From Hymenobacter sp. BRD128 (lineage in GTDB: Bacteria; Bacteroidota; Bacteroidia; Cytophagales; Hymenobacteraceae), in NCBI RefSeq assembly GCF_013256625.1, contig NZ_CP053908.1, forward strand, positions 868,001 to 932,000: a stretch of 64,000 bases of DNA, in the 5' to 3' direction. Position 1 is the stretch's first letter. Each line of letters starts with the position of its first letter. Below the pieces are notes generated by a model. The model had not been told where the DNA came from. It made no database searches and was given only the letters and a program-made list of their open reading frames with translations. The position numbers were made by a program, and so were the translations under genes. Below are positions 20,241-23,909 of this stretch, one piece after another.

Positions 20241-21200
20241 CTACATGCCCTCGTGGCCGTTGGCTGCTACTTCACGCAGTACCTGCCGCAAGCTGGCCGG
20301 CTCTTGCAAGTGCCGTGCTAGCTGTATTAAGTAGTCGGTTTCGGCCCGCAGGCTGCGTTTTATATCGCGTAGCCGGGTGCGCTGCTGCTTTTCGGTGCCG
20401 CTCCAGGGTGCATGCTCGTCGGGCCGTCGGGCAGCTGCCAGCTGCTGGCTTAGTCGGGCTTGTTGCTGCGCCAGGGCCTCGGCCTCGGCACTGGGTGGGG
20501 TAGCAGTATCCGTCGTAGCGAGCAGCGAAAGCAGCGCTGCTAGGTCGCCCGCCGCGTAGGCAGCCGTGATGCGCTGCATAAGTGCCGTCTGAGCTTGCTG
20601 CGTGTCTGCATCGGCCCGGGCCGCGCGGTCGGGGTGGTGCAGGCGGGCCAGCTGGCGGTAGGCAGCTTTCGTGTTTTCCAGTAAGGCTTGGTTTTCATGC
20701 TCCGTAGCCTGGGTTTGCGTGGTGCGGGCCCGCTGGCGGTGGGCGCGGGCTGCTGCTGCTTGCTCGTGGGGCGGTGGCCCGGGGCTAGCCTGCGGCGTGG
20801 CGGCGTCCGGTTTCGCTTCTAGTGGCGGTGGCGGCGGGGCATAGCGAGCCAATATTTCAGCCTCATCTTCCCCAAAGCGCTCCTGCAGGCTGCGGGCATT
20901 GTGCACCAGTAGTTCCGTTACCTGCTGTAGTTCAGCCCGGTTGAGGTAGCCGCTGGTTAAGGCGGTTTCTAGGGGCGCGTATAAGGCACGGCGGGCGGTT
21001 ACGGCTGCGGCAGCTACTGGCCCCACCTGTTGCCAGTAGGCCTGCCGGGTGGTCGCCTGGCTAGCCCGCAGGCGCTGCAACTCCTCGCGCAGGGTATTCA
21101 CTTGATGCAGTGCGTGGCGAAAAGCCAGCTGAGCGGGCGAGCCGGCTGGTGCAGCTGCCACCCGTGCGGGTAGCCGTTGGCGTTGAGGTAGATTAGGCAC
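20241..21200 (-). CDS. J-domain-containing protein
   Basis: A 319-residue protein rich in Ala and Gln, largely coiled coil. A J-domain lies in the C-terminal half (about residues 180-240): AYRQLARLHHPDRAARAD has the HPD tripeptide needed to stimulate Hsp70 ATPase, and LMQRITAAYAAGDLAALLSL fits helix III. A Pro-rich linker (around 130-150) precedes it, and further helices follow. It probably acts as a specialised DnaK co-chaperone; the client is unknown. It is transcribed away from the non-coding region that precedes rtcB. Confidence 0.7.
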   Translation of the reverse strand: MPNLPQRQRLPARVAAAPAGSPAQLAFRHALHQVNTLREELQRLRASQATTRQAYWQQVGPVAAAAVTARRALYAPLETALTSGYLNRAELQQVTELLVHNARSLQERFGEDEAEILARYAPPPPPLEAKPDAATPQASPGPPPHEQAAAARAHRQRARTTQTQATEHENQALLENTKAAYRQLARLHHPDRAARADADTQQAQTALMQRITAAYAAGDLAALLSLLATTDTATPPSAEAEALAQQQARLSQQLAAARRPDEHAPWSGTEKQQRTRLRDIKRSLRAETDYLIQLARHLQEPASLRQVLREVAANGHEGM

Positions 21201-21393: not shown

Positions 21394-21545
21394 CAAACCC
21401 CCACAGCCATGTATCGACTGACAGTCAATTTTCGCAGTTCGGATAAGATGCAGCCAGAAAAACTGGTATGGCCTGGTACGTTTGCCTGATTTTAGCGCCT
21501 CGCTAAAACTGTCGCCGCCCGAGCCCATAAAGCTCGGGTTTTTTG
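21394..21545 (+). ncRNA. Candidate small RNA / sORF unit with own promoter and terminator
   Basis: Between the promoter-like site at 21357 and a terminator hairpin (21518-21524 with 21532-21538, then six T) lies about 150 nt. It holds a 26-codon open frame (21409-21489, starting MYRLTVNF) and a perfect 8-bp hairpin (21490-21497 with 21501-21508). It may be an independent sRNA, a short peptide gene, or the remnant of a larger gene. It lies upstream of the broken Ro60 gene and reads in the same direction. No family was recognised. Confidence 0.4.
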
Positions 21546-21667
21546 TTGTTGCCCGGTTATCAGCTGCTTAGCTATTACCTCGATGCTCGCCCAGCCTTCC
21601 GGTTGCCAGTTTGAGTTGCCCCGGTAGCCGTCGGCCCAAGGCTAGCCGGTGCGTCATATTCAGATTT

Positions 21668-21719
21668 TTTATTTGCATAATAATTGCCGATAACTATCGG
21701 CAATTATTATGCAAATAAA
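21668..21719. repeat. Perfect 24-bp inverted repeat, AT-rich
   Basis: Arms 21668-21691 and 21696-21719 are exact complements with a 4-nt loop, and the outer flanks are partly complementary too. No long T run follows directly, so it is not a standard terminator. It lies between the small unit and the Ro60 remnant and could be a structured RNA, a MITE-like remnant or a protein-binding site. Confidence 0.7.
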
Positions 21720-21740
21720 ATCAGACTTTTAATTTTATTA

Positions 21741-21850: not shown

Positions 21851-22054
21851 ATGCGTTTCAATTGCGACTTGCCCACGAAAGCTGCGCCAGTTCGCAATCA
21901 CGAAACCGCTCCCGTCGCGCAATAGCTATACGCTGCCGCTACGGCCGCCCTCAGCGACCGGTTTTAGAAGCAGGCCGGCACCCGGCTAGCCCGCTTGCGG
22001 GCGCTGGTAGCTCATAATAGGTCGCAGTTCGTGGTGCGGCTGGCGGTATATGCG
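21851..22054 (+). pseudogene. rsr: Ro60 / TROVE-domain protein (rsr), N-terminal remnant
   Basis: The frame from ATG 21851 reads MRFN..PTKAAPVRNHE, then LYAAATAALSDRF, KQAGTRLARLRALVAHN and QFVVRLAVYA. These pieces appear in the order and spacing of the N-terminus of bacterial Ro60 (TROVE) proteins. It is broken by TAG codons at 21923-21925 and 21965-21967, a short internal deletion, and loss of similarity after 22054, where about 400 more codons would be expected. Intact bacterial Ro60 (Rsr) forms a HEAT-repeat ring that binds Y RNA and misfolded RNA, and is often encoded beside rtcB. rtcB lies 455 bp downstream here, in the same direction. This assignment comes from remembered family sequence and has not been searched. 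Confidence 0.65.
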
Positions 22055-22168
22055 CTTATCGCCCGGTATTCCAAAGTTGGCCGAATAATTGTCTAACTCT
22101 TTACCCGCAGCATAGTCATGCTTCACGACTTAGGCAAACGACTGACCCCTTAATGGCAGTCGCTAGCC

Positions 22169-22214
22169 GGAACGGCTACCCGCCGGGGCCCAGTTTGCTC
22201 CGGCGGCCCGTTCC
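22169..22214. other. GC-rich two-step hairpin
   Basis: GGAACGG (22169-22175) pairs with 22208-22214, and inside it CCGCCGG (22180-22186) pairs with 22200-22206. This gives a stable, bulged stem-loop between the Ro60 remnant and the tRNA-like region, possibly part of the same structured RNA. Confidence 0.45.
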
Positions 22215-22237
22215 AAACCAGTCGCATTTCCTTCGTG

Positions 22238-22325
22238 GGTGAGTGCCGGAGGCTAGCGCTACTTCGTGATAAAGTTATCGGGTGCAATGCGTTGCATCTC
22301 GTGGGGTCGAATCCTGTTGCTCACC
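22238..22325 (+). ncRNA. tRNA-like structure with long variable arm (candidate Y RNA module or tRNA remnant)
   Basis: The 88 nt fold as a degenerate cloverleaf. An acceptor-like stem GGTGAGTG (22238-22245) pairs with the last 8 nt (two G-U pairs). A 4-bp anticodon-like arm has a 7-nt loop. An 8-bp variable arm with a 4-nt loop lies at about 22280-22299. A T-arm carries GTCGAAT in place of TTCGAAT. Defects are a very short D-arm, a G at position 33 and no encoded CCA, so it is unlikely to be a working tRNA. Bacterial Y RNAs of the YrlA type carry such tRNA mimics and sit between rsr and rtcB, which matches this position. The orientation is the same as rtcB. Confidence 0.4.
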
Positions 22326-22330
22326 TGGCT

Positions 22331-22389
22331 AGCGGTAGCGTAGTGGGTAGCGCACCTTAAAATCGCAGGCCTCACGCCTGGTGCCCGCT
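22331..22389 (+). ncRNA. Second tRNA-like segment with canonical D-arm
   Basis: AGCGG (22331-22335) can pair with CCGCT (22385-22389). Directly inside are TA (the U8/A9 positions) and a textbook D-arm, GCG-TAGTGGGTAG-CGC (22338-22353). An ACCTTAAAATCG segment and a perfect hairpin CAGGC-ctcac-GCCTG (22366-22380) follow. There is no T-arm, so it is either a partial tRNA mimic or a decayed one. It follows the first tRNA-like element within 6 nt. Confidence 0.35.
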
Positions 22390-22508
22390 TTTGCTGAAAG
22401 CTGCCGGATGCCGTAGGTCGGCGCTACTGCGACCCGTCCCGTTGCCCACGTGCACCGTCCGCTCATTGCTGCGGCGATTTTTTCTTTCAATTTCACAATC
22501 AACTGCTT

Positions 22509-23909
22509 ATGGCCACACAATTACGCGGCAACGACTTGCGGCAGCTCGGGTTTCCTGAGGGCCGTGCCATTGGGCTGGCACTCGCCCAGCTGCAACGCAA
22601 AGAATTCAAGCGCCTGTCGCAAACCGACCAGCTAGCGCTGCTAACAACCATTCTGGCTAGCCCCTCATCTTTTCTTACCGACTTGGCCTGGAGCCACGTG
22701 GCCGGCGCGCTCTTGCCGCCTCCGTCGCGGCACGTCGAGCTGGTAGCGCGCAAGGAGTAGGCCACCTTCGGGGCCGAACATATTGATGCCAGCGCCATCC
22801 ATCAGATGGAAACGGCCATGAAGCTGCCCGTGACGGTGGCCGGCGCGCTCATGCCCGATGCCCACCACGGCTATGGCCTGCCCATCGGCGGCGTGCTGGC
22901 TGCCGATAATGCCGTGATTCCCTACGCCGTGGGCGTGGACATTGGCTGCCGCATGGCTCTGTCGGTGTTCGACCTGCCAGCCAAGTACCTTGCCCAGCGC
23001 ACCCAGGAACTGCGCAAAGTGCTGCTAGACAACACGCGCTTTGGTAGTGGCCGGGGGTGGGAGCGGGGCCAGCGCCTAAACCACGACGTGCTCGAGCGCG
23101 ACGAGTTTCAGGCCGTGCCATTCTTGAAAAACAAGCTCGCCACGGCCGCCGAGCAGCTTGGCACTTCGGGCTCGGGCAACCACTTCGCGGAGTTTGGCTT
23201 AGTGGATATTACCGACCCGGCCAACGAGCTGGGCCTGCCACTGGGCCAGTACGTGGGCGTGCTTTCGCATTCGGGCTCGCGGGGCCTGGGTGCCAGCGTG
23301 GCGCAGCACTACACCGGCCTGGCCAAAGACGTGTGCAAGCTCCCCGCCGAGGCCCAGCACTTGGCCTGGCTAGGCCTCGATACCGAGGCCGGCCAGGAAT
23401 ACTGGGCCGCCATGACTCTGGCCGGCGACTACGCTTCGGCCTGCCACGAGCACATTCACCGCCGGCTGGCCAAGGCGCTGGGCGAGAAGCCCCTGGCGAA
23501 AGTGGAAAACCACCACAACTTCGCCTGGAAGGAACACTTGGCCGATGGCCGCGAGGTCATCACGCACCGCAAGGGCGCCACCCCGGCCGGCGCTGGTGTG
23601 CTCGGCATCATTCCCGGCTCCATGACGGCCCCTGGCTTTATTGTGCGGGGGCGCGGTGCGGCAGCTTCGCTGGCATCAGCCGCGCACGGGGCCGGGCGGC
23701 TCCTGTCGCGCACCCGCGCCAAGGCCGAGCTGAGCGAAGCGCAGGTGCGCCGCACCCTCGCCGACCACGGCATCGAGCTCATTGGTGGGGGGCTCGACGA
23801 GGCGCCGCAGGCCTACAAAGACATTCACACCGTGATGGCTAGCCAGCACGAACTGGTAGAGATTCTCGGCTCCTTTACCCCAAAAATCGTGCGGATGGAC
23901 GGCGCGTAG
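22509..23909 (+). pseudogene. rtcB: RtcB RNA ligase interrupted by one in-frame TAG
   Basis: The frame from ATG 22509 to 23909 encodes one RtcB-family protein of about 466 codons, broken only by TAG at 22758-22760 (codon 84). The N-terminal piece (MATQLRGNDLRQLGFPEGRA) and the following ATFGAEHIDASAIHQMETAM match the usual Bacteroidota RtcB N-terminal part. Downstream all active-site blocks are intact: VGVDIGCRM (metal Asp and Cys), GSGNHFAEFG, SHSGSRGLG, HHNFAWKEH and SAAHGAGR (the His that becomes guanylylated). RtcB joins 2',3'-cyclic phosphate or 3'-phosphate RNA ends to 5'-OH ends using GTP and Mn2+. Restart at ATG 22806 or 22818 would give a protein lacking about 100 residues. It may be a young pseudogene, a readthrough case or an assembly error. 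Confidence 0.85.

Follow-up and report, generated by a model that had tools for sequence, protein, structure and literature searches.

The Y RNA YrlA tethers PNPase to Rsr and is recognised by tRNA-modifying enzymes (PMC8394870). In Salmonella, the rsr-yrlBA-rtcBA operon holds two Y RNAs placed between the Ro60 gene and rtcB. A further partnership of this kind is RYPER of Deinococcus, which consists of Ro60, Y RNA and PNPase (PMC8394870). Our literature search returned no publication dealing with Hymenobacter Y RNAs. The window, that is, the whole stretch of 64,000 nucleotides from Hymenobacter sp. BRD128 that was analysed, contains the feature discussed here between a leftward gene (20241-21200) and the start of rtcB, whose closest relatives are those of other Hymenobacter. 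The feature directly before rtcB is, in our view, very probably what remains of a Ro60-Y RNA array: compared with YrlA, the copy in the window is a decayed chimera deprived of Ro60, and the lack of this protein also distinguishes the genome from Deinococcus and its RYPER.

The relatives provide the template against which the window copy has to be read. Orthologous Hymenobacter loci carry a TROVE (Ro60) gene upstream, followed by a row of Y RNAs and rtcB, a placement that resembles that of the Salmonella operon. The ancestral locus consisted of rsr, about 5-9 tandem Y RNAs (compared with the two units of Salmonella) and rtcB. For instance, two of the arrays (L034 3316-5629 and L039 4325-5516) have 8 or 9 units between Ro60 and rtcB, among them Lys-, Leu- and Ser-like tRNA mimics; unlike those of Salmonella, the Hymenobacter arrays include units that imitate class II tRNAs (Leu, Ser) and have a variable arm. 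Intact units follow the plan GGGTGCCGTAG..., T-arm, closed hairpin, D-arm, ...TGTTGCCCC, and they resemble YrlA (RF02553) in having a T-arm, a closed acceptor hairpin and a D-arm inside a basal stem. RF02553 is also the best Rfam match of the intact relatives, with scores (30-44 bits) below the gathering score of 69. Thirty-five Y RNAs from related Hymenobacter were aligned to obtain what we call the class I covariance model; 21 of the 35 pairs of this alignment present two-sided changes, 96.4% of the cells are paired, with a covariation score of 0.446 as opposed to 0.157 in shuffles, none of which (0/500) was as high. In the class I unit, a Y-type basal stem bears a circularly permuted tRNA body; such a unit is a YrlA-like Y RNA. 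Tandem Y RNAs were also observed upstream of rtcB in other Bacteroidota, including Cyclobacteriaceae, Chitinophagaceae and Pedobacter (L102 2818-3275, L097 5126-5618, L099 5265-5508 and L095 4524-4994).

The initial annotation described two tandem tRNA-like structures at this place in the window. Their arms are indeed present as strings, but they form one permuted unit, as indicated by the alignment with the sister genome G076 and by the class I model (R1), which matches 22239-22388 with 33.4 bits (E 3.7e-9 in a search over 1.7 kb). As this match is full length (model positions 1-137, basal stem included), one of the two structures described is the T-half, and the other the D-half, of a single unit. 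The score of the window unit on the unit-1 model (R3) is 30.8 bits. The scores of well-matching intact units are 100-148 bits with the class I model and 71-115 with the unit-1 model, and those of the window unit rank among the lowest of the Y RNA family on both.

It was stated that no normal tRNA is made here, and neither ARAGORN nor Rfam at its gathering score calls one at 22238-22389. It is also very improbable that the feature derives from a tandem pair of degenerate tRNA genes, or from pieces of tRNA, that came to lie beside rtcB. The tRNA-like arms are certainly visible, and the class I model must be used with the caveat that it also matches genuine tandem tRNA junctions; such matches, however, are partial (positions 29-115), whereas that in the window runs from one end of the model to the other and takes in the basal stem. 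In addition, the T-arm precedes the D-arm, so that the cloverleaf order (acceptor, D, anticodon, T, acceptor) is not followed, and the halves fit no particular tRNA: no convincing identity was obtained for either of them, with best scores of 13-14, whereas the halves of the better-matching intact units score about 18-25 each. The homologous Y RNA arrays at the same place in the relatives contradict this origin directly.

The individual arms have suffered to different degrees. The variable arm of 8 bp, already recognised in the initial annotation, is real, since the homologues keep it with compensating sequences (in G076, L031, L034, L041 and L016). Of the proposed T-arm, the loop string GTCGAAT is present, but its stem is predicted not to form, with a pairing probability of 0.05 in the window unit as compared with a median of 0.54, with wide scatter, in 104 homologous units. 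Similarly, the D-arm thought to be canonical exists as a string, but the pairing probability of its stem in the predicted ensemble is 0. The outer stem is still pairable (predicted probability of 0.74). The Ro-binding motif of the basal stem is present in altered form, with GTGCCGGAG instead of GTGCCGTAG and GGTGCC-CGC instead of GTTGCCCC. As for the supposed acceptor-like stem of 8 bp, the pairing GGTGAGTG/TGCTCACC (22238-22245/22318-22325, with two G-U) does exist, but it is conserved in no homologue and is probably fortuitous; in G076, its 3′ bases are one side of the closed acceptor hairpin. The tRNA-like module of the window unit is homologous by sequence to that of the relatives, where it is foldable, but its T- and D-stems are predicted to be unformed.

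The folding energy of the window unit is at the level of shuffled sequences (z of 0.1-0.9), as would be expected if the arms were chance strings in GC-rich DNA. This is, however, weak evidence on the integrity of the unit, because many intact homologues also have z-scores near 0 (the mean for intact class I units is -0.6), and folding energy fails to tell intact from decayed copies in this GC-rich family. Moreover, chance would have to account for model matches with E-values of 4e-9 and 7e-13 in the two Y RNA units of the window, for a recognisable Y RNA in G076 that is 84% identical and for a Ro60 pseudogene next door; homology refutes this explanation, the least probable of those considered.

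The comparison with G076 (L171) also reveals how the unit was put together. The window is 84% identical to this genome over 22077-22335, a stretch that includes the intact first Y RNA of G076, and the similarity ends at CTAGCGG; the best matches of this front part are the first units of L034 and L031. The remainder fits best the 3′ halves of other units, in L025, L011, L015, L051, L034 and L041. Since the similarity to G076 stops at 22335 and what follows resembles the 3′ halves of other units, the window unit is a chimera produced by a deletion within the array, with the breakpoint probably at a GCGG repeat, near 22336. Its descent from the Y RNAs of the rsr-rtcB locus is well supported by these sequence relationships. 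Rfam RF02553 gave no match anywhere in the window.

Table 1. Features of the locus from the Ro60 stub to rtcB (window positions)
Feature	Position	Strand	Remarks
Ro60 (rsr, TROVE) pseudogene stub	21851..22054	+	codons 1-75 of ~509, two in-frame stops, rest deleted
Conserved two-hairpin element	22126..22225	+	directly upstream of first Y RNA
Decayed chimeric Y RNA (YrlA-like)	22239..22388	+	strands of the basal stem at either end; T-half precedes D-half
Chimera front, from first unit of the array	22239..22335	+	5′ Ro-stem strand, variable arm, T-arm, acceptor hairpin
Variable-arm-like hairpin, 8 bp (two G-U)	22280..22299	+	pairs kept, with differing sequences, in six homologous units
Degenerate T-arm, loop GTCGAAT	22301..22317	+	2 of 5 stem pairs Watson-Crick
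Chimera back, from another unit	22336..22388	+	D-arm and 3′ Ro-stem strand; junction at GCGG repeat
D-arm string GCG-TAGTGGGTAG-CGC	22338..22353	+	read from sequence
Relic of a second Y RNA, of the short type lacking a tRNA module	22404..22474	+	model R2, 51.9 bits, E 7e-13
rtcB, 466 codons	22509..23909	+	in-frame TAG at 22758-22760 (Tyr codon in relatives)

The gene for the expected protein partner is found in its ancestral place, but it is dead. The rsr stub was recognised by tblastn with the TROVE protein of L041 (48% identity, E 8e-6), and it is 71% identical at the DNA level to the rsr stub of G076 (alignment E 4e-104). No TROVE protein was found elsewhere in the genome of the window (G000, 99.9% complete). 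Because this genome has only a dead stub of the gene, the window element cannot be here the ligand of Ro60 that had been suggested. Shortened rsr genes were also seen in G088 (L170 6169-6535), without residues ~90-475, and in G076 (L171 3180-3508), without residues ~84-470; the similar extent of these deletions reflects either one common event or a deletion hot spot. Upstream of the stub, a small ORF (MYRLTVNFRSSDKMQPEKLVWPGTFA, 21410-21490) is followed by a terminator-like hairpin, and similar short ORFs occupy the same place in G076 and in BRD67 (G005/L032). Just before the stub, there is a long and near-perfect AT-rich inverted repeat (ATTTGCATAATAATTGCCGATA, 21662-21727), and the low-threshold Rfam matches to plant miRNA families at this position are artefacts of it.

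Across 120 genomes of the genus, strong Y RNA matches were found in all 84 TROVE-positive genomes and in only one of the 36 TROVE-negative ones (Fisher p ~2e-29, counting genomes as independent despite their relatedness). The single exception, G088, carries a fresh internal deletion in rsr, and its Y RNAs are little decayed, the best of them scoring 112 bits. The Ro60-less genomes can be placed in a series. After G088 comes G076 (54 bits on the class I model), in an intermediate state: its rsr is shortened, and its unit 1 is unfused and still scores 83 on the unit-1 model; then BRD67, with a unit 1 of 82.7 bits, in the intact range, and a poor short unit; then the window, with the chimera and a poor short unit; and finally G008, G013 and G036, which have none beside rtcB. 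The covariation that the initial annotation wished to see in related genomes is strong in the homologues, which lie between Ro60 and rtcB, and the sequence does belong with the tRNA mimicry of Y RNAs that it invoked, but the window copy is a decayed chimera.

It was also proposed that the RNA might be a substrate or regulator of RtcB. In a broader form, the collapsed Y RNA would be a functional, Ro60-independent RNA that acts as ligand or substrate of RtcB or as a cis-regulator of rtcB expression. We consider this improbable, despite the position of the element directly upstream of a gene that is itself under purifying selection (dN/dS of 0.04-0.17, similar to that of the relatives), the pairable ends of its basal stem and the case of BRD67, which retains one well-formed unit without Ro60; the intact-range score of the latter possibly reflects either some remaining function without Ro60 or a very slow loss. 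Position is, however, the sole tie to RtcB, and rtcB persists intact without an adjoining upstream Y RNA in the Ro60-less G008, G013 and G036. Furthermore, neither the T-stem nor the D-stem of the window unit is predicted to form, its scores are among the lowest of the family and the window rtcB itself contains a stop codon. Because the gene is otherwise under purifying selection, this TAG is either very recent or a sequencing error. A TAG was also observed inside the rtcB match of an order-level relative (G054).

Two further elements accompany the chimera. The second Y RNA relic scores only modestly under the intact range, as its model (R2) gives 58-94 bits in Ro60-positive loci and 50.8 in BRD67. 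No database family matched this unit; it and its homologues share with short Y RNAs the basal stem motif (GATGCCGTAG...TGTTGCTCC) and have no T- or D-arm. The two-hairpin element is present in nearly every array (nhmmer E 2.5e-26, 36 loci aligned), with compensatory changes in the second hairpin and fold z-scores of about -3 to -4. Loci that lack Y RNAs also have a copy of it ahead of rtcB (L177 2613-2675, a weak match, and L047 5451-5526). That this element is very well kept speaks against reading the locus as a relic, as do the score of the short Y RNA, so near the intact range, and the well-formed unit 1 of BRD67.

Considering the whole locus, we still favour its interpretation as a relic of a Ro60-Y RNA array. 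In the lineage of the window, rsr was deleted down to a stub, and the array collapsed into one chimeric unit, with the front of unit 1 and the back of another, plus one short Y RNA. With Ro60 gone, the Y RNAs would have lost both their protector and their job and would now be drifting, and RtcB would have stayed under selection, working independently of them. In the intact ancestor, the Ro60 ring would have served as the dock for the basal stem, and the permuted tRNA body may have been offered to PNPase, by analogy with RYPER, which is the likely kind of partnership, or, as a decoy, to tRNA-cleaving nucleases. Because both a Ro60 partner and a foldable tRNA module are missing, we do not class the window unit as a working Y RNA. 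Most likely, the element does nothing in the present genome, and its RNA would be absent or useless today.

The possible job of the intact arrays may be approached through their resemblance to particular tRNAs. When the T-half and the D-half of 67 intact units were scored separately against the tRNA set of a relative (G034), both halves pointed to the same isotype in 32 units, as opposed to 11 expected by shuffling (maximum of 20 in 2000 shuffles), a comparison whose p-value is optimistic, given that the units are homologous across genomes. The agreeing units are of the Lys (14), Leu (9), Ser (5), Gly (3) and Thr (1) types, and a variable arm is part of those of Leu and Ser type. Additionally, a hairpin of 3 bp and 7 nt, with T at the second loop position, precedes the T-arm in 34 of the 67 units (5.4 in shuffles), and its commonest loop, CTTTTAA, is the anticodon loop of tRNA-Lys(TTT). 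We know of no earlier report of isotype-specific sets of Y RNAs. As a tentative proposal, the intact arrays might be sets of isotype-specific tRNA mimics (Lys-like, often with the loop CTTTTAA, Leu- and Ser-like, with their variable arms, and Gly-like), each a permuted body on a Ro60-binding stem. Such mimics could decoy or bait nucleases that cleave tRNA, next to the repair ligase RtcB, the set decaying after Ro60 loss, as in the window.

Together, the window and its relatives suggest an order of events in which Ro60 is lost, the Y RNAs decay and RtcB is still selected. Such an order, if true, would mean that the Y RNAs depend on Ro60 here and that RtcB does not. The question that the living relatives raise is why as many as about nine Y RNAs are maintained at a Ro60-RtcB locus, with several of them imitating different tRNAs.
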